From: Akkermansia muciniphila
GTDB lineage: Bacteria; Verrucomicrobiota; Verrucomicrobiia; Limisphaerales; SIAT01
NCBI GenBank assembly: GCA_945860945.1
Contig: CAMASG010000007.1
Coordinates: 1 to 50,100, forward strand
Reading direction: 5' to 3'
Length of the DNA stretch: 50,100 nucleotides
Part shown: one piece after another, positions 2,623-11,217 of the stretch
Numbering within the stretch: position 1 is the first letter of the stretch
How the letters are laid out: each line of letters begins with the position of its first letter
Program-made: the position numbers and the translations under genes
Notes under the pieces: generated by a model
The model's input: the letters and a program-made list of their open reading frames with translations, nothing else
Told to the model about the DNA's origin: nothing
Database searches by the model: none

Positions 2623-5600
2623 TCAGAGCGGTTGAACGCCGAGCGTGCCGTGAAGTTCGTGCAAGTAATCAGCCGACTGCACGTCCATCAGCGTTCGTTT
2701 CGCTTCAGAAAGGCGCTCAGGAATCCCAATCCGTGCTGCTGCTGCGGCATGCGAGGAATCGGCGAGAAAGGTTTCGAGGTAGCGCACGTGCTGTTGCCAG
2801 AGTCGCGTGTCGTTGACCTGTTTCGCTTTCAATCGCGCGGCATACCAATCGCTGGCGAGCATCTGATCGCGCGTGAAGAGGGCCCGGATTTCCGGGTGGT
2901 CGAGGCTTTTACCCTCGTGCTGGCCCTCGCGCATGATGTGCAGCAGCACCTTCAACGGTGGGCAGGCGAGAGCAATGCTGCCGTCGGCGAAGTAGTGGTC
3001 GGCCACGCGCCGCTGGGTTTCCACGATGTTGTCTATTCCGTCGGCAAAAATGTCAGCGTCCTGTTTCTCGGGGCGCAACATCTCCTCGGTGAGAACCGCG
3101 TGAGGATAGTTGAACATCCGGCCGAAGAAGTGGCGAACGAAGCGTTTGGTGATGCGCCAGCCAAGCCGACTGGCGAGTACGAGTTGACCTTTGTGCTCGA
3201 AGTCGGTGCAACGCTCGAGATGGCCTTCGGCGATGAGGTGGCGCGGATCGCGTTCCTCGACGGTCATCCGGCACCAAATCTCCGGCGCGACGAGGCTGAT
3301 GTCGTGATCCACGCGCACGTGCGGGCCGACGTAGCCGGCAGCAGTGACGAAGCCGTGCTGGCCGGTGAGCAGATGCGAGACGAGCGTGGCGTTCAGATCG
3401 AAGACGGGCGGCAGAGCGTTGAACGGCCCTTTCGTGAGAGCGCCTTCGCTGCCTGCGCCAGTGGTGGAAGGCGACTTGCCGGTCATCGAGCAGATGAACT
3501 CCATCAGCAATTCTGGCAGCTCCATGTAATGAATGGGGCTGTAGCAGGCGAGCGAGCGGATGCCCGTGTCGGGCGGATTATTGCGGCGGCCCATCAGCAC
3601 GGCGTTGACGGGCGTGGGCACTGGTTGGCCGAGCGGGACGCGGCGGGAGAGGCTCGTGCAAATCTCGGCCAGATAAACTGCGCGCGGATTTACGAGGTCG
3701 GGGCGTGTCTGAAGGTAGCGCGGATTTTTCGTCGGCTTGCCGTCCACGAGGCGCGGGTGCGCGGGCGAGACGAAGTAGTCGGGAGAATTTCCGGCGGCGA
3801 CCTCGCGGATGAGCCGCTGCATCGGCTCGGTGTATTGATCGAAGTTGAGCGTGTCGTCGATCAGCTCGTGCGCGAGCGGCGCGGGCAACGGTTCGTAGTT
3901 CGAGAAGAAGTTGCCCGGCTGCGCGTAGTCCGCTTCGGTCTGCTTGTCGTAGCCGCGATGGACTGCGTCGTCCGGCCGCTGGAAAAGGCGCGTCTCACAG
4001 TTCTGCGTGAACTTCACCGACAGCTCCGCGTAGTCCGGATTCAGATACGACACGCGCGCGGTCGGCACCACGACGGAGGCGCTGATGTCGTCCTCCATCG
4101 CCAATTTCACGGCGGGCTGAAAATCTTTCCGCAGGTTGAAAGTGCGCCACGCATCGCGGTCAAAGCCGATGCGTAGATAAGTAGTGAGCAGTTTCTTCGT
4201 GTCGCGCTTCAGCTCGTTGCCCGTCTCACCGTTCACGATGTCCACGCTGAAATGCGCGCGCCAGTCCGCGTTCCACGTCGGTTTGTAGTAGCGCTTCACG
4301 ACGAAGAGCAGCTCCTTGATGTGCGGCGGAATGGAGTTGAGCCATGCGTTGTATTCCTCCGAGTAATCGCGTGTCGTCGGCGTGAAAAGTTTGATGACCG
4401 AGCCGATGGAGCGCTCGGGGCTGAGGATCGGACGCTTGTCGGCGCCGTCCTTGCTCGCGTCCTTGAAGCGGGCGGAATAATCGCGGTTGATGAGTTGCTC
4501 GACGAGGTCGAAGTCTTTTTGAAAATCGGCGACGAAGACCGGCCCGATCAGCACCGCGTCGCTGATCGGTTTGGAGATTTCCGATTTACCGCCGCCGGAG
4601 ACAGTGCACGGTTTGTGGCAGAACGTCCCCTCCGCCACGGTCCCGACGAGGCGCCAGACGCGGCCCGCCGCCGGTTTCTCCATCTGCACGCGATAGCCCG
4701 AGGGCCGCACGTAGGTCTTGTGCGGGAGCAGTTTGATCATCTGTATTCCGCTACAGTGCGGCCAGCTCACCGTCTGCTTGTTCAGATCGAAGTGAACTTT
4801 TTCGGAGACGTAGATAATGTCGGGGAACTTTCGATCCACCGCGAAGCCTTCCGCTTTCACCTCCATCAAGTCGCCGCAGAGCCGGAGCATCTCATCGAAG
4901 CTATGTCCGCGGTTGCGCACATGGAGATCACCGCTGAACTCGTCCGCGAGATCGTAGCTCGGATAAACCAGCGCGCCGCCCGCGTGCTCTTCCTCGGCGA
5001 GACCGTACAGATTCGTGGCGAAGCTGATCTGCGTCTTCACCTCTTTTTTACAATAGCCGAAGTAATTGTCCGCGATGATCGTGACAATCAGGCCGGAGGC
5101 GTCGCGCGCCGTCAACTTGAAGGCGCCACCGTTGTTGTAACGCTCGGCGGAATCGCGCCAGCACAAACCATCGCGCCGTTGCCGCTCGGTGGCCTCCTCG
5201 AAACGCGGCAGGCCAGCCTCTCGCTTGGTCACGTTGATGAGATGCGGCGCGAGAATCACGCAGCCGGTGTGGCCGGTCCAATGTTCGACGTCCAATCCCG
5301 CGTCGTTCTCCGGAAGCGCCGGGTTGCCGGCGTTGCCGAAGATGCTCTCCACGAAATCGAGGTTGCTCACCAAACTGCCGGGCGCGAAGAAGCGTAGCTC
5401 CATCCGCTTCTCGGAGATGAAGCCCGGCACCGCGGGACAAACCAACGGCCGCAGCAGCAATGAGACGAAGCATTCCGTCGGCTGCGATGCTGTGCTCGTG
5501 TAGGGCAAGCGCAACAGTTCCGGCGTCGGCACGAAAGCGCGGCGCAGCAGTTCCGCGAAGACCGTGACGGGCACGGCCAGCTTGTCGTCCGGAATCGGCA

Positions 5601-5955
5601 GGCCACCTTCGGTCACGTGGAAGATGCCCTGTGTCGTGCGGCGGTCGCTCTTCGGATTGTGCAGCACGCCTTGCTTCACGCGATACGAGCTAATGATGTC
5701 CGAATGGAACTCGTCGCGATCCGGCGGCAGCGAGAGTTCGCGCACGAGTCCGGCTTGATCGAGGACGAATGTTCGCTGCGGTAGTTGAGGGAGATCGGCT
5801 GTCACTCCCGCCGTGCGGAGATAACGGTCGAGAAAATTCTGAAGCCGTTCATCAATGGGCGAGAGGGCTGTCGGCGCGGAATCACGCAGCGCGGCCAACC
5901 GCTCGGCAATCGCTTCGGCGGCAGTGGGCACAGGACAGCTATCGTTCGTTTCCAT
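2623..5955 (-). CDS. Probable PPi-type phosphoenolpyruvate carboxykinase
   Basis: Very long cytoplasmic protein, 1,110 residues from the ATG at 5955 (METNDSCPVP). The frame is open a further 50 codons to 6105, but that extension looks non-coding. It has no signal peptide or membrane span. A P-loop-like motif TVSGGGKSEISK lies near the middle, with Lys457, resembling the kinase-1a loop of PEP carboxykinases. The size, this loop and the C-terminal region (ITKRFVRHFFGRMFNYPHAV) fit my memory of the pyrophosphate-dependent PEPCK family, whose members are about 1,100-1,200 residues and interconvert oxaloacetate plus PPi with PEP, CO2 and phosphate. That family is very divergent from the ATP and GTP types, and annotation pipelines often leave it hypothetical. 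The naming rests on recall, not alignment. It is a single gene, divergent from yfiR. Confidence 0.55.
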   Translation of the reverse strand: METNDSCPVPTAAEAIAERLAALRDSAPTALSPIDERLQNFLDRYLRTAGVTADLPQLPQRTFVLDQAGLVRELSLPPDRDEFHSDIISSYRVKQGVLHNPKSDRRTTQGIFHVTEGGLPIPDDKLAVPVTVFAELLRRAFVPTPELLRLPYTSTASQPTECFVSLLLRPLVCPAVPGFISEKRMELRFFAPGSLVSNLDFVESIFGNAGNPALPENDAGLDVEHWTGHTGCVILAPHLINVTKREAGLPRFEEATERQRRDGLCWRDSAERYNNGGAFKLTARDASGLIVTIIADNYFGYCKKEVKTQISFATNLYGLAEEEHAGGALVYPSYDLADEFSGDLHVRNRGHSFDEMLRLCGDLMEVKAEGFAVDRKFPDIIYVSEKVHFDLNKQTVSWPHCSGIQMIKLLPHKTYVRPSGYRVQMEKPAAGRVWRLVGTVAEGTFCHKPCTVSGGGKSEISKPISDAVLIGPVFVADFQKDFDLVEQLINRDYSARFKDASKDGADKRPILSPERSIGSVIKLFTPTTRDYSEEYNAWLNSIPPHIKELLFVVKRYYKPTWNADWRAHFSVDIVNGETGNELKRDTKKLLTTYLRIGFDRDAWRTFNLRKDFQPAVKLAMEDDISASVVVPTARVSYLNPDYAELSVKFTQNCETRLFQRPDDAVHRGYDKQTEADYAQPGNFFSNYEPLPAPLAHELIDDTLNFDQYTEPMQRLIREVAAGNSPDYFVSPAHPRLVDGKPTKNPRYLQTRPDLVNPRAVYLAEICTSLSRRVPLGQPVPTPVNAVLMGRRNNPPDTGIRSLACYSPIHYMELPELLMEFICSMTGKSPSTTGAGSEGALTKGPFNALPPVFDLNATLVSHLLTGQHGFVTAAGYVGPHVRVDHDISLVAPEIWCRMTVEERDPRHLIAEGHLERCTDFEHKGQLVLASRLGWRITKRFVRHFFGRMFNYPHAVLTEEMLRPEKQDADIFADGIDNIVETQRRVADHYFADGSIALACPPLKVLLHIMREGQHEGKSLDHPEIRALFTRDQMLASDWYAARLKAKQVNDTRLWQQHVRYLETFLADSSHAAAAARIGIPERLSEAKRTLMDVQSADYLHELHGTLGVQPL

Positions 5956-6327
5956 CACGGGTGATGTCAGGGGAATCGGAAGCCCACCGACGCTTTGCAG
6001 AGTAGGTGCGGGCGCGAAATCAGCAAGCCTGTTTTGAAGAAGTAAGCAGGAGGTCGTCGAAAACGAGCGGAACTGCGCGCTGGATTTTTCGTTGATTGCC
6101 GCCACCCATTCGTCGCAACATCAGGAGAGCCCCCGAGTTTTGAGGCGAAACCGCCTCATGCTCGGTTTGGCTGTCAGTAAACAACTAATTCCTACGAGTC
6201 GTGCCATGAAGTCGCGCCGTTGTTCGTTATCGTCTGCATTGGATTTTTTAGCTGAACCACTCCGCCCGCTTAGGTCGCTGATTGGCATCCTCTGACTCTC
6301 TGGTAGCGTGCCGGTGGCCTTTTTTAC
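5956..6327. other. Divergent intergenic region with one hairpin
   Basis: The 372 bases between the long PEPCK-like gene and the yfiR-like gene contain no convincing gene. The only clear structure is a two-part hairpin at 6133-6165. Its inner stem is TGAGGCG (6141-6147) pairing with CGCCTCA (6152-6158) over a 4-base loop, and its outer stem is CCGAG (6133-6137) with CTCGG (6161-6165). It sits in the likely 5' leader of yfiR or between two divergent promoters. Its role is not known. Confidence 0.4.
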
Positions 6328-6387
6328 ATGAACGAGACAATCCAAACCTGACGGAAGAAGGCGCTACTGGCCGCTTTTGGTTTTGGA

Positions 6388-6918
6388 TTGGGCTGTTGGA
6401 TGGCGGCGGCCGTGTGCGTGCAGGGGCAGGAGGCTGCGCCGACGGCGGAGGAGCTTAAGCTCGCGTATCTGCTCAAGTTTCCAGGTTTCGTGACGTGGCC
6501 GAAGAAGGCGTTTCCAAACGCGAAAGCGCCTCTGATCGTCGCCGTCTGGTCGGGCGCCAAGGCCGTGCCGGAAGGATGGATCAAGATCATCGAGAAAGAG
6601 CGGTACGGGACTCGGCCTGTGAAGTTCCGCGAGGTGAAGTCGTGGGAGGAGACGAAGGAATGCCACGTGCTCTTTCTTCCCGACGCTGACTCGCCCCCGC
6701 CGCCGCCCGACGCGGTGTATCGCCAGCCGTTGCTGATCGTGAGGGGCAGCGCGCCGACGGTGCCGGAGGCGTCCATCACTTTTGTGAAGGAAGGCGATCG
6801 GCTGCGGTTCGACATCAGCGTGCCGGCAGTCAAAGCCGCGGGTCTTGTGATGGACGCGCGGCTGCTGAAGCTCGCGCGGCAGGTGCGTCTGCCGGCCGAC
6901 AAGGAGAGGAAGCGATGA
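6388..6918 (+). CDS. YfiR-like (DUF4154) periplasmic protein; start disturbed by in-frame TGA
   Basis: A family marker of YfiR/DUF4154 is visible: ELKLAYLLKFPGFVTWPKKAF, read here in two parts (ELKLAYLLKF, then PGFVTWPKKAF), with a C-terminal LVMDARLLKLARQVR tail. In Pseudomonas, YfiR is a small periplasmic repressor that holds the YfiN diguanylate cyclase inactive. Here the stop overlaps the ATG of a histidine kinase (ATGA, 6915-6918), so the two are translationally coupled. The start is a problem. The natural N-terminus appears to be ATG at 6328 (MNETIQT), but a TGA at 6349-6351 interrupts it before RKKALLAAFGFG and the rest of a signal peptide. The listed TTG at 6388 is only the first usable start after the TGA and would lack the positively charged n-region. 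Confidence 0.75.
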   Translation: MGCWMAAAVCVQGQEAAPTAEELKLAYLLKFPGFVTWPKKAFPNAKAPLIVAVWSGAKAVPEGWIKIIEKERYGTRPVKFREVKSWEETKECHVLFLPDADSPPPPPDAVYRQPLLIVRGSAPTVPEASITFVKEGDRLRFDISVPAVKAAGLVMDARLLKLARQVRLPADKERKR

Positions 6919-9900
6919 GCTGGCGCGTGGCAGACTGGCCGTTGCGGGCGAAGTTCACGGCGCTGACGATGTTCATCAGCCTCCTGAGCCTCACGCTTTT
7001 CTCGGGCGTGTATGCCTTGAACGAGTATTACACGGCGCGCACGGATGTGCGCCGCGAGCTGATGACGTTGAACGACGCTGCCGCACCGGCGGCGTTGGGC
7101 GCATTGGCCTTCGACGATGCTGAACAAGCAGAGCGCGCGATCAGGGTGCTCCGTGCAAATCCGGCTGTGATGGCGGTGCGGCTGTATAAAGCAGACGGCA
7201 ATGTGGCCGCGAAATGGTCTCGGGAAAATGCGATGGAACATGATTGGCCCGCCGTCGGTACTGCCGACAGCGAGTTGTATGGATGGAAGATGCTCCACCT
7301 GACGCGAATCATCCGACTCCCTGATGGCACGCGGATCGGGTCGCTCTGTCTTTGCTCGGACTTGCTGCCGGTGAAGGAACGGATGAGACAGACGCTGGGC
7401 GCGTTGCTCGGGCTTTGGCTGATCTCTTTGGGAGTGGCTTACCTCGCGACGCGGTATCTGCAGGAGTTGGTGATTCGCCCGGTGCTCGATCTTTCCGATG
7501 CGATGCATCAAGTGACGGAGTCGAAGAATTACGCGCGGCGCGTGCCGATGACGAGTGGAGATGAGATTGGCCGGCTTGAGACGAGCTTCAACGAGCTTCT
7601 TGGAAAAGTGGAGGCAAGCGAGAGCGAGCTGGAGCAGCGCGTGCGCGAGCGCACCGCCGAGTTGGCGGAGATGAACGAGCGTCTGATTGGTGAGGTGCAG
7701 AAGCGGTTCCGCACGGAGGCGGCGCTGCGGTCGAGCGAGGAGCGTCTGGCACTTGCCATGAAGGGCTCGGACTTGGGGCTGTGGGATTGGAACGTGGTCA
7801 CCGGCCACGTCATTTTCAGCCGGCGATTGGTGGAGATGATCGGTTACACGCTGGAAGAGGTGGCGCCGCACGTTTCCACGTGGGCGAACTGGGTTCATCC
7901 CGAGGATTTGCCGAATGTGATGGCCGCGCTGAACAGGCATCTGGCAGGGGAGACGAAAATCTACGAGACCGAGCACCGGCTCAAGATGAAGGATGGCGGC
8001 TGGCTTTGGATACTTCACCGCGGACAGGTGGTGGAACGCGATACCAAAGGAAAGCCGCTCCGCGCCGCCGGCACGCACTTGGACATTTCCCCGCGCAAGG
8101 AAGCCGAGCGGCTGTTGCGGGAGTCGCATGATTTGCTGGAGCAACGCGTGAACGCACGCACCGGGGAATTGGCGACGAGCGACGAGCGTTTCCGACAGTT
8201 GGCCGAGAACATCGCAGAGGTGTTCTGGATGACGGAGCCGGATAAGAACCAGATGCTCTACATCAGCCCCGGCTACGAACAGATATGGGGGCGTGCTTGC
8301 AAAGAACTCTACGCGAACCCGCGCTCGTGGCTGGACGCGATTCACGTCGATGACCTCGACCGCGTGCTACAGGCGTTTCCCAAACAGGCGGCGGGCACGT
8401 ATGACGAGGAGTATCGCATCACGCGGCCGGACGGCGCGACGCGGTGGATTCGCGATCGCGCTTTTCCCGTGCGCGATGCGTCTGGGAAAGTGGTGCGTGT
8501 GGCCGGTATCGCGACGGATATCACCGAGGAGAAACTCGCGGCGCTGGGCGTGGCGCGACAGAGCCATGCGTTGCAGCAACTCGCGCGGGATCCCGTGCTG
8601 CACGAAGGCGATTTTGATGCCGCGCTGCGCGCGATCCTCTCCTCCAGTGTGGCGGCCGTGGAGGTGGCGCGGGTGAGTTACTGGGCTTACACAAAGAACG
8701 GGGCGGCTCTCCGTTGCGAGCAGCTTTGGAACGGGGCGGGCCTGCAACCGGTGTTCACGGGCGTCGAACTGCGCGTGGCGGATTATCCCTGTTACTTTGC
8801 AACCTTGAAGAATGAACGAGTGGTTGCGGTGAATGACGCGGTGGCCGATCCGCGCACGTCGGAATTCGCCGAGCTTTATCTTAAGCCGCACGGCATCACC
8901 TCGATGTTGGATGCGCCTGTGCGCGCGAACGGCCGTGTGGTGGGCGTGGTTTGCCACGAACACACTGGGACGCGCCGCGTGTGGACGTCGGAGGAGCGGC
9001 AGTTCGCCGCATCGGTGGGCGATCTAGTCGCAATCGCGCTCGGTGCGCAGAAACGGCAACAGGACGAGGAGCAGATTCTGCTGCTCGCGCACACGCTGGA
9101 GAGCACGCGCGAGATGATTGCGATCGCCGATGCGGACAACCGTTTCATTTACATCAACGAAGCGTTCCAGCGTGGCTATGGTTATTCGCTGAGCGAATTG
9201 ATAGGCAAGCCGGCGTCTGTGATCAGCCTGAATACTCCGGAGTCGCAGATGCAGGAGATTCCGCAGAAGACCGTTGCGGGCGGTTGGCAGGGGGAATTGA
9301 TGAACCGGGCGAAGGACGGCCGCGAGTTCCCGGTCTCTCTCAGCACCTCGCCGGTGTTCGATGCCGCCGGCAAGCTGATCGCGATGGTCGGTGTGGCGAC
9401 GGATATCTCCGAGCGCAAACGGCTCGAGCGCGAGACGCTGGAGGCGGGCGAACGTGAACGCGAACGCATCGGCCAAGATTTGCACGACGATCTTTGCCAG
9501 CACCTCACAGGCATACGGTTCAAGGCCGCGCTGCTGGAGAAGAAGCTCGGCGCCGGCGAGAATAAAATGCAGAGCGACGCGGGCGAAATCGTCCGGCTGC
9601 TCGCCGACGCCACGGAGCTGGCGCGTGCTTTGGCGCGCGGTCTGCAGCCAGTGGACCCTGCGCCCGGAGGCTTGATGGCCGCGCTGCAGCAACTCGCGGT
9701 GAACACGACGCAGATATTCAAGCTCTCCTGCGATTCCCGTTTCCCGAAGCCGGTGTTGATGCACGATCTCCACCTCTCCACGCACCTTTATCGCATCGCG
9801 CAGGAAGCGGTGCAGAACGCCGTCAAGCACGCCGCGCCCGGCTGCATCGAGATCGTGCTCGAGACACATGGCGACCGGATGATTCTGAGCGTGATCGATG

Positions 9901-10073
9901 ATGGCTCCGGTATCCAGCCATCCAAGAACGGCGAACTCGGTCTCCGTACGATGCGTCATCGCGCGCAGTTGATCGACGCTGTGCTGGAGGTCAAGCCGTT
10001 GCCCGAACGCGGCACGGTGGTGACCTGTTCGGTGAACTATCACTCGTCGCCGAGAAATAAAAAGGAGACGTGA
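6915..10073 (+). CDS. CHASE8-HAMP-PAS-PAS-GAF-PAS sensor histidine kinase (NarX/DegS-type catalytic core)
   Basis: Inner-membrane sensor kinase of 1,052 residues. Order: first membrane span about 15-36; periplasmic domain about 45-145 with the CHASE8-like stretch AAAPAALGALAFDDAEQAER; second span about 158-180; HAMP about 180-230; a coiled coil; PAS about 272-395; PAS about 421-545; GAF about 555-713; PAS about 720-840; HisKA_3 dimerisation domain with phospho-accepting His857 in IGQDLHDDL; HATPase with N-box Asn968 in AQEAVQNAVKHA and G-box DDGSGI and GELGLRTM. It should phosphorylate the LuxR-type regulator 64 bases downstream. CHASE8 is also the periplasmic sensor of YfiN/DgcN, the partner of YfiR, so the overlapping yfiR-like gene is a plausible ligand for this domain. 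Confidence 0.9.
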   Translation: MSWRVADWPLRAKFTALTMFISLLSLTLFSGVYALNEYYTARTDVRRELMTLNDAAAPAALGALAFDDAEQAERAIRVLRANPAVMAVRLYKADGNVAAKWSRENAMEHDWPAVGTADSELYGWKMLHLTRIIRLPDGTRIGSLCLCSDLLPVKERMRQTLGALLGLWLISLGVAYLATRYLQELVIRPVLDLSDAMHQVTESKNYARRVPMTSGDEIGRLETSFNELLGKVEASESELEQRVRERTAELAEMNERLIGEVQKRFRTEAALRSSEERLALAMKGSDLGLWDWNVVTGHVIFSRRLVEMIGYTLEEVAPHVSTWANWVHPEDLPNVMAALNRHLAGETKIYETEHRLKMKDGGWLWILHRGQVVERDTKGKPLRAAGTHLDISPRKEAERLLRESHDLLEQRVNARTGELATSDERFRQLAENIAEVFWMTEPDKNQMLYISPGYEQIWGRACKELYANPRSWLDAIHVDDLDRVLQAFPKQAAGTYDEEYRITRPDGATRWIRDRAFPVRDASGKVVRVAGIATDITEEKLAALGVARQSHALQQLARDPVLHEGDFDAALRAILSSSVAAVEVARVSYWAYTKNGAALRCEQLWNGAGLQPVFTGVELRVADYPCYFATLKNERVVAVNDAVADPRTSEFAELYLKPHGITSMLDAPVRANGRVVGVVCHEHTGTRRVWTSEERQFAASVGDLVAIALGAQKRQQDEEQILLLAHTLESTREMIAIADADNRFIYINEAFQRGYGYSLSELIGKPASVISLNTPESQMQEIPQKTVAGGWQGELMNRAKDGREFPVSLSTSPVFDAAGKLIAMVGVATDISERKRLERETLEAGERERERIGQDLHDDLCQHLTGIRFKAALLEKKLGAGENKMQSDAGEIVRLLADATELARALARGLQPVDPAPGGLMAALQQLAVNTTQIFKLSCDSRFPKPVLMHDLHLSTHLYRIAQEAVQNAVKHAAPGCIEIVLETHGDRMILSVIDDGSGIQPSKNGELGLRTMRHRAQLIDAVLEVKPLPERGTVVTCSVNYHSSPRNKKET

Positions 10074-10137
10074 AGCGGACTGAATAGTTGTCCGCTGCGC
10101 GCTTCACGCTTAAACTCCGTTCGCAGCACACGTCGCC

Positions 10138-10818
10138 ATGAAAACCACCGCGCCCGCAAAAACCACCAAGAAGCGGATTCTCCTCGTGGACGACCATCCC
10201 GTGATGCGTGACGGCTTCGCCCAGCTCATCAACCACGAGGCAGACTTGCACGTCTGTGCGCAGGCCGCCACGCCGACTGAGGCGCTCGAATTGCTTTCGC
10301 AGCACAAGCTGCACCTCGCCATCGTGGACCTTTCCCTCGGTGACGCCAGCGGCCTCACGCTCGTGCGCGACCTGCTCCATCGCCAGCGCGATCTGCCGGT
10401 GCTCGTTCTCTCGATGCACGACGAGTCGCTTTACGCTGAACGCGTTTTGCGCGCCGGTGCCCGTGGTTTCGTGATGAAGCAGGCATCCACGGAAGAGGTG
10501 CTGTCGGCTATCCGCACCGTGCTTTCCGGCGTCAACTACGTGAGCGACCGCATAAAGGGTCGTATGTTGCAGGCGATGGTCACCGGCCAGAAATCGGCCG
10601 AAGGACTCGATACCCTGAGCGACCGCGAGATGGAGGTTTTTCAACTGATTGGCAAAGGTCGCAGCACGCGCGAGATCGCCGAGGGACTGAGCCTCAGCAT
10701 TAAGACCATCGAAACCTACCGCATGCACCTCAAGGAAAAGCTCGATGCCCGCACCGCTACCGAGTTGGGCCGCCGCGCCGTGGAATGGACGAGCCGTCAG
10801 CAGACCGGCAAGGTTTGA
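10138..10818 (+). CDS. NarL/FixJ-family response regulator
   Basis: 226 residues. The receiver domain (about 12-130) has the acidic pair in LLVDDHP (Asp18-Asp19), the phospho-acceptor Asp64 in AIVDLSLG, the Ser in VLSMHD and the conserved Lys in FVMKQAS. The LuxR-type helix-turn-helix at about 158-215 shows LSDREMEVFQLIGKGRSTREIAE and SIKTIETYR, given here in separate pieces. It starts 64 bases after the histidine kinase and is its obvious partner. Target promoters cannot be read from the sequence. A hairpin region just downstream (10884-10950) probably ends the operon. Confidence 0.93.
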   Translation: MKTTAPAKTTKKRILLVDDHPVMRDGFAQLINHEADLHVCAQAATPTEALELLSQHKLHLAIVDLSLGDASGLTLVRDLLHRQRDLPVLVLSMHDESLYAERVLRAGARGFVMKQASTEEVLSAIRTVLSGVNYVSDRIKGRMLQAMVTGQKSAEGLDTLSDREMEVFQLIGKGRSTREIAEGLSLSIKTIETYRMHLKEKLDARTATELGRRAVEWTSRQQTGKV

Positions 10819-10883
10819 GGATGTGAAAAGACGGTCTTCGGTGACGGGCTTCGTCATTTCAATCCGCCCCTGCACTTGACAGC

Positions 10884-10950
10884 CATCAGGGAAACCCTGA
10901 TGAAAAAATCAGGGCGCACCCCGATGGTCGGACTGGGGTTTCCCTGTTTT
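10884..10950 (+). terminator. Terminator-like hairpin with competing alternative folds
   Basis: CAGGGAAACCC (10887-10897) pairs perfectly over 11 bp with GGGTTTCCCTG (10936-10946) and is followed by TTTTAATTTC, which has the form of a Rho-independent terminator. The left arm is also part of a shorter hairpin, CATCAGGG (10884-10891) with CCCTGATG (10895-10902). A third arm, ATCAGGG (10908-10914), can compete for the same CCCTGAT. The folds exclude each other. It lies 66 bases past the response-regulator stop. The terminator reading is likely; a regulatory switch is only a possibility. Confidence 0.5.
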
Positions 10951-11030
10951 AATTTCGAAAGCTGATGCTGGAGACGATGGGCTACCGCGTATCGATTAAG
11001 GGTGTCAGTCAAAGGAGACCAGTTGGGTTA

Positions 11031-11076
11031 AGGGCGCGGGCCGCATCTTCGCGGGAACCCGCGCCCTATTTTTTAT
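11031..11076 (+). terminator. Strong Rho-independent terminator
   Basis: AGGGCGCGGG (11031-11040) pairs over 10 bp with CCCGCGCCCT (11058-11067). An inner CCGC/GCGG stem (11041-11044 with 11051-11054) extends it, and ATTTTTTAT follows on the plus strand. No gene ends immediately before it; the closest upstream stop is that of the response regulator at 10818. It may be a second terminator of that operon or the end of a small transcript in 10819-11030. Confidence 0.7.
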
Positions 11077-11142
11077 CTGCGCTACTTCTGATGGATACAC
11101 CCGTTCACGCGAAGGCGCGTACTCGCAAAGTGCAGTGGTAGC

Positions 11143-11189
11143 GACACGCCGATGGCGTGTCATTTTGCGAAGCCAAGCCAGCGGCTTGG
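11143..11189. repeat. Paired short palindromes, REP-like
   Basis: Two perfect hairpins sit 11 bases apart: GACACGCC-GAT-GGCGTGTC (11143-11161) and CCAAGCC-AGC-GGCTTGG (11173-11189). Both have 3-base loops and GC-rich arms. Such twin palindromes between convergent or unrelated genes resemble repetitive extragenic palindromes. Copies elsewhere in the genome would prove it; none was seen inside this window. Confidence 0.5.
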
Positions 11190-11217
11190 TTCTACCTTGT
11201 GCGCCGAACACACGCAT

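Follow-up and report, generated by a model that had tools for sequence, protein, structure and literature searches.

What does a YfiR-like protein control when the gene beside it encodes a histidine kinase? Work on YfiR has treated it almost exclusively as a switch for c-di-GMP and biofilms. Here we analysed a 50,100-nucleotide stretch of DNA (the window), taken from a 2.63 Mb, 94%-complete assembly, in which a YfiR-like gene adjoins such a kinase gene, and examined the pair in related genomes and across phyla.

The three-gene order given by the initial annotation (YfiR, kinase, NarL-type regulator) was borne out by Pfam and by the coordinates. On the forward strand, the YfiR-like (DUF4154) gene occupies 6388-6918 (176 aa from the listed TTG, the true start being uncertain), the sensor histidine kinase gene 6915-10073 (1052 aa) and the gene for a NarL/LuxR-type response regulator 10138-10818 (226 aa, Response_reg and GerE). 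The four-base overlap it described between the first two genes is also present in the sequence, the yfiR stop TGA lying at 6916-6918 and the kinase ATG at 6915-6917. A pattern match 3' of the operon, on the forward strand, picked out a terminator-like hairpin followed by a T-run (11050-11063); the region contains 11 matches of this kind, against 4.7 expected, and the hairpin is therefore weak evidence alone. On the reverse strand of the window lie a gene encoding six stretches of Sel1 repeats and then a trypsin-like protease domain (971-2578), and a 1160-aa open reading frame with no Pfam match (2623-6105), around which the DNA is 81-84% identical in both congeneric genomes.

The product of 6388-6918 was assigned to DUF4154 (PF13689) by Pfam over residues 22-164 (E=1.1e-22), with the reading frame open across the full domain. 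Its AlphaFold2 model (mean pLDDT 86, 75-row alignment) returned YfiR as the 15 best fold matches in the PDB, which were all those with E <0.001; the matches ranking after YfiR were periplasmic ABC substrate-binding proteins of Rhodothermus. The best NCBIfam match was NF053591 (YfiR_like_TOL0243), over model positions 2-150 of 150, at 99.1 bits against a curated cut-off of 125 bits. The median identity of the window protein to other YfiRs is 26%, compared with 41% overall, and a Gly-Gly loop that is near-invariant in YfiRs (glycine in 144/150 and 132/150) is replaced by Glu-Ala. Neither of the two conserved YfiR cysteine pairs (71-110 and 145-152) was found on alignment of the domain, which has a single Cys, at the Cys110 position, and lacks equivalents of Cys71, Cys145 and Cys152. 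The window protein retains Trp-Pro, the Cys and the binding-patch Phe. Judged by sequence, the YfiR-kinase locus of the window is a divergent member of a known, little-studied module.

The true start of yfiR is uncertain, and the listed TTG at 6388, which gives a short, uncharged leader, is doubtful because a signal-peptide-like frame upstream of it is interrupted by an in-frame TGA. The stretch concerned (6328-6387, forward strand) translates as MNETIQT-stop-RKKALLAAFGFG, and its TGA at 6349-6351 lies between the signal-peptide-like RKKALLAAFGFGLG and the nearest in-frame ATG, at 6328; MNETIQT-stop-RKKALLAAFGFGLGCWMAAAVCVQGQ thus resembles a signal peptide broken at 6349. A CTG at 6367, behind GGAAGAAGG, is a possible alternative start. 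Use of this CTG, a consensus error in the assembly and real decay are all possible readings of the TGA.

The kinase has the architecture TM, CHASE8, TM, HAMP, PAS, PAS, GAF, PAS, HisKA_3, HATPase_c, and the three PAS and one GAF domain expected from the initial annotation were recovered by Pfam. The CHASE8 profile, named there as the check on the sensor, gave a significant match to residues 43-146 (7041-7352, forward strand) at E=1.1e-9 to 2.3e-10 (38.9-41 bits, Pfam cut-off 27), and HAMP matched at E=1e-8. For the E. coli DgcN/YfiN model the match covers residues 14-239 (1.8e-21), and GALAF in the window CHASE8 stands where YfiN has the YfiR-binding AAVVF, sharing the Phe and one Ala. A PDB sequence search with the CHASE8 part gave no significant match; the AlphaFold2 model of the sensor part (mean pLDDT 92, 75-row alignment) matched WalK, CitA and LapD-type periplasmic PAS sensors in the PDB by fold. 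The best NCBIfam match of the sensor half was NF053592 (HK_near_YfiR_like), at 2e-43 over positions 1-222 of 223, with a score of 148.5 bits, below the curated cut-off of 194 bits. Since both proteins fall below the curated cut-offs of NF053591 and NF053592, they are outlying relatives of the two families. The transmitter (9456-10034, forward strand) consists of HisKA_3 (848-913) and HATPase_c (955-1040) by Pfam, with the predicted phosphorylatable His857 within ERIGQDLHDDL. The regulator matched Response_reg (6.7e-25) and GerE (3.1e-14) in Pfam, and its predicted phospho-acceptor is Asp64; a HisKA_3 kinase with an adjoining REC-GerE regulator is the NarL-type two-component layout.

To place this pair, DUF4154 neighbours were surveyed in the class, where the domain was found in 62/286 genomes, at 89 loci besides the window; neighbours were labelled by profiles built for the analysis, and counts are limited to loci with enough flanking sequence. 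A CHASE8-type sensor gene lies directly 3' of DUF4154 in 82/88 other class loci (83/89 including the window), and 79 of these 82 sensor genes have a kinase domain and none has GGDEF. The expectation that related genomes keep the pair together holds, as this neighbour survey had been proposed to check, for the 82 class loci; it does not hold for the two congeneric genomes, G269 and G286, neither of which has the kinase sensor by profile search, G269 having no DUF4154 either and the G286 contig breaking off at the position of the locus. A HisKA_3-type motif was seen in the class survey only in the window kinase, in a motif scan that left many other kinases unassigned. In many class loci, L052, L101, L104, L108 and L109 among them, the gene that immediately follows the CHASE8 kinase encodes another, hybrid kinase (PAS, HATPase and two receivers), which suggests a kinase relay.

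A window-first DUF4154 alignment contained no stretch conserved enough for a GTDB scan, hence the class-core alignment was used as query; it returned 80 named loci, and with this query the survey is biased towards typical members rather than random. The sensor is adjacent in 76/79 of the named loci, with a kinase in 71 and GGDEF in 1, and Pfam CHASE8 matched 75/75 aligned sensors. Kinase pairs occur in MAGs labelled Verrucomicrobia, Acidobacteria, Nitrospirota, Gemmatimonadetes, Ignavibacteriae, Armatimonadota, Planctomycetota, Bacteroidetes, Proteobacteria and others, so that among these named loci the YfiR-CHASE8 kinase pair spans about ten phyla. The sole GGDEF among them is in a Nitrospirota locus (L138, 5737-8974), where a similar YfiR-CHASE8 input has a GGDEF-EAL output, showing an output swap within a related sensor background. 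The kinase, which the initial annotation had presented as a notable local rewiring, is instead the usual DUF4154 partner in the class and in many phyla; it has been in print since 2012 and has its own NCBIfam model.

The two genes also share a history. Distances among YfiRs and among sensors correlated with a Mantel r of 0.76, compared with <=0.14 in 500 permutations (150 distinct pairs), and in multi-copy genomes the actual neighbour fitted better than a swapped paralogue in 27/27 comparisons, which shows, at the level of sequence, that YfiR and its sensor travel and diverge as a unit. Neighbouring genes could covary in this way through inheritance in one operon rather than through contact. 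Malone et al. 2012 (PMC3375315) proposed that a Phe of the sensor contacts YfiR, and this Phe is kept in 137/150 sensors and in that of the window.

Profile searches of the 94%-complete window genome detected no GGDEF, EAL or PilZ domain, and it is therefore well supported that the window module works without c-di-GMP, as had been proposed for its combination of YfiN-like sensor, kinase and DNA-binding output. GGDEF was likewise undetected in 47/63 genomes searched (the 62 with DUF4154 and the congener G269); together with the 0 GGDEF sensors in the class, this makes c-di-GMP independence normal there.

The initial annotation described YfiR and the kinase correctly and did not include the third gene that usually accompanies them, which encodes a TonB-dependent receptor and is not present in the window. 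Such a receptor lies directly upstream of YfiR on the same strand in 66/84 class loci (and divergently in 6 more) and upstream in 60/73 named GTDB loci, giving a share of about 80% with the receptor immediately upstream; Pfam (Plug and beta-barrel) confirmed two receptor calls, and the others were made by a profile built for the analysis. In the open literature, searched by title or abstract, no paper reporting YfiR with a TonB-dependent receptor was found. The receptor association is the new part of the findings, the kinase pairing being already in print.

No TonB-dependent receptor was found in the neighbourhood of yfiR in the window, and a search of the window's own intergenic stretches found no receptor relic; the genome has two TonB-dependent receptors elsewhere, as do its congeners (two each). 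G269 aligns to the window on both flanks of a segment (6036-11217) that contains the whole module and is absent from G269, 409 bp standing there in place of about 5.2 kb. In the translation of these 409 bp, a leader is followed by about 50 residues of a TonB-dependent receptor N-terminus and then a stop (L218, G269:C28:18600-20100, positions 813-959), with the appearance of a relic. This relic matched YfiR-linked receptors at 3.6e-15 by profile and 2.8e-12 by pairwise search; none of the genus's own receptors examined (L209-L211) matched it, and its 49 aa gave no Pfam match. Because the empty site in the congener keeps a receptor fragment, the window locus probably once held receptor, YfiR and kinase. 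The simplest reading is that an ancestor had the receptor-YfiR-kinase locus and that the window and G269 lineages reduced it in different ways; two separate events at this site are a less simple possibility.

We consider the window locus to belong, in derived form, to a widely distributed trans-envelope signalling module that pairs a YfiR-like periplasmic protein with a CHASE8-HAMP kinase and is usually headed by a TonB-dependent receptor; here the kinase would have a NarL-type output, without c-di-GMP (probability roughly 0.6). The gene order, the domains, the homology to YfiR and YfiN, the joint inheritance, the missing c-di-GMP domains, the usual receptor neighbour and the congener's relic are the observations on which we build; divergence of the window copy, loss of Gly-Gly, the doubtful yfiR start and the lack of a receptor gene nearby count against this reading. 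By analogy, the YfiR-like protein would use the same hydrophobic surface as in YfiR-YfiN to bind the CHASE8 dimer in the periplasm, and would keep the kinase in a single signalling state, presumably off. A periplasmic or outer-membrane event would release YfiR from CHASE8, and the conformational change would run through TM2 and HAMP, tuned by the cytoplasmic PAS/GAF inputs, and set the phosphorylation of His857. The phosphate would then pass to the adjoining NarL-type regulator, which would act on promoters. In this scheme we infer the physical binding, the sign of control, the phosphotransfer to the regulator, the ligand and the target genes.

The best surviving alternative, which we nevertheless regard as unlikely, is that yfiR is decaying and its product is not exported, the kinase and regulator working independently of YfiR through PAS/GAF or a direct CHASE8 ligand. 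The TGA inside the signal-peptide-like stretch, the missing Gly-Gly loop, the low identity, the lost receptor and the absence of the module at the G269 site would all fit decay, but the DUF4154 frame is fully open and scores 1.1e-22, Trp-Pro, the Cys and the binding-patch Phe are kept, and the four-base overlap with the kinase is intact. Slightly less probable still is a YfiR-like protein that serves as a ligand-binding co-sensor, similar to a solute-binding protein, and activates the kinase when loaded, with no sequestered repressor. The substrate-binding proteins that follow YfiR among the PDB matches, the uptake function of the usual TonB-dependent neighbour and the lack of YfiB among annotated neighbours point that way; the only studied relatives, the Pseudomonas and E. 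coli YfiRs, act as repressors (PMC3375315, PMC4655355), and the sensor retains the YfiR-binding Phe, both of which argue against it. That the pair feeds c-di-GMP signalling, for example via a distant diguanylate cyclase, was suggested by input domains homologous to YfiR and YfiN, and is rejected as highly improbable given a 94%-complete genome with no GGDEF, EAL or PilZ match and 47/63 genomes without GGDEF.

Returning to the derived trans-envelope module, a broader proposal, which we put forward tentatively and at somewhat less than even odds, is that receptor, YfiR and CHASE8 kinase form one trans-envelope system in about ten or more phyla. The receptor, in the role of YfiB, would pass its ligand state to YfiR, which would switch the kinase, and the window locus would be a remnant left after receptor loss. 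In this class, YfiR belongs to two-component regulation, often in genomes without a diguanylate cyclase, and usually stands beside an outer-membrane receptor. Should that receptor provide the input, uptake at the outer membrane would be linked to transcription by a route that differs from the FecA/FecR or SusC/hybrid systems. The receptor link, rather than the kinase link, is the part worth following.

Among known systems, YfiBNR of Pseudomonas aeruginosa (YfiR-DgcN-YfiB in E. coli) resembles the window in having a DUF4154 gene directly before a CHASE8/PAS-HAMP membrane sensor, and the sensors are homologous (DgcN model, 1.8e-21) and share the Phe of the AAVVF motif. YfiBNR has a GGDEF output, whereas the window has a kinase and a NarL regulator; YfiB lies next to YfiBNR, whereas a Pfam scan of ten neighbouring window ORFs found no YfiB OmpA-like lipoprotein; and of Cys71, Cys110, Cys145 and Cys152 of its YfiR, the window keeps the equivalent of Cys110 alone. 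Malone et al. 2012 (PMC3375315) proposed that the YfiR-YfiN[PAS/HAMP] core is an ancient module and reported distant systems in which GGDEF-EAL, HPT or sensor histidine kinases replace the GGDEF of YfiN, with the verrucomicrobium Opitutus terrae among the distant homologues aligned. The central claim of the initial annotation was therefore already in print, the divergent systems of that paper having, like the window, sensor kinases in place of GGDEF; it covers far fewer genomes than were surveyed here and contains 0 mentions of TonB-dependent receptors. NF053591 and NF053592, the latter named 'sensor histidine kinase, YfiR-like protein-associated' in NCBIfam, describe the same gene adjacency, the window scoring below their cut-offs. 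One close precedent for the HisKA_3/NarL output of the window is an Ignavibacteriae MAG locus (JACQVI010000147.1, L142), which, unlike the window, has a TonB-dependent receptor upstream and a kinase with four PAS domains and no GAF, about 27-31% identical to the window kinase over aligned segments; its gene order is that of the window (YfiR, CHASE8-HAMP-PAS-HisKA_3 kinase, LuxR-type regulator), and its genes overlap.
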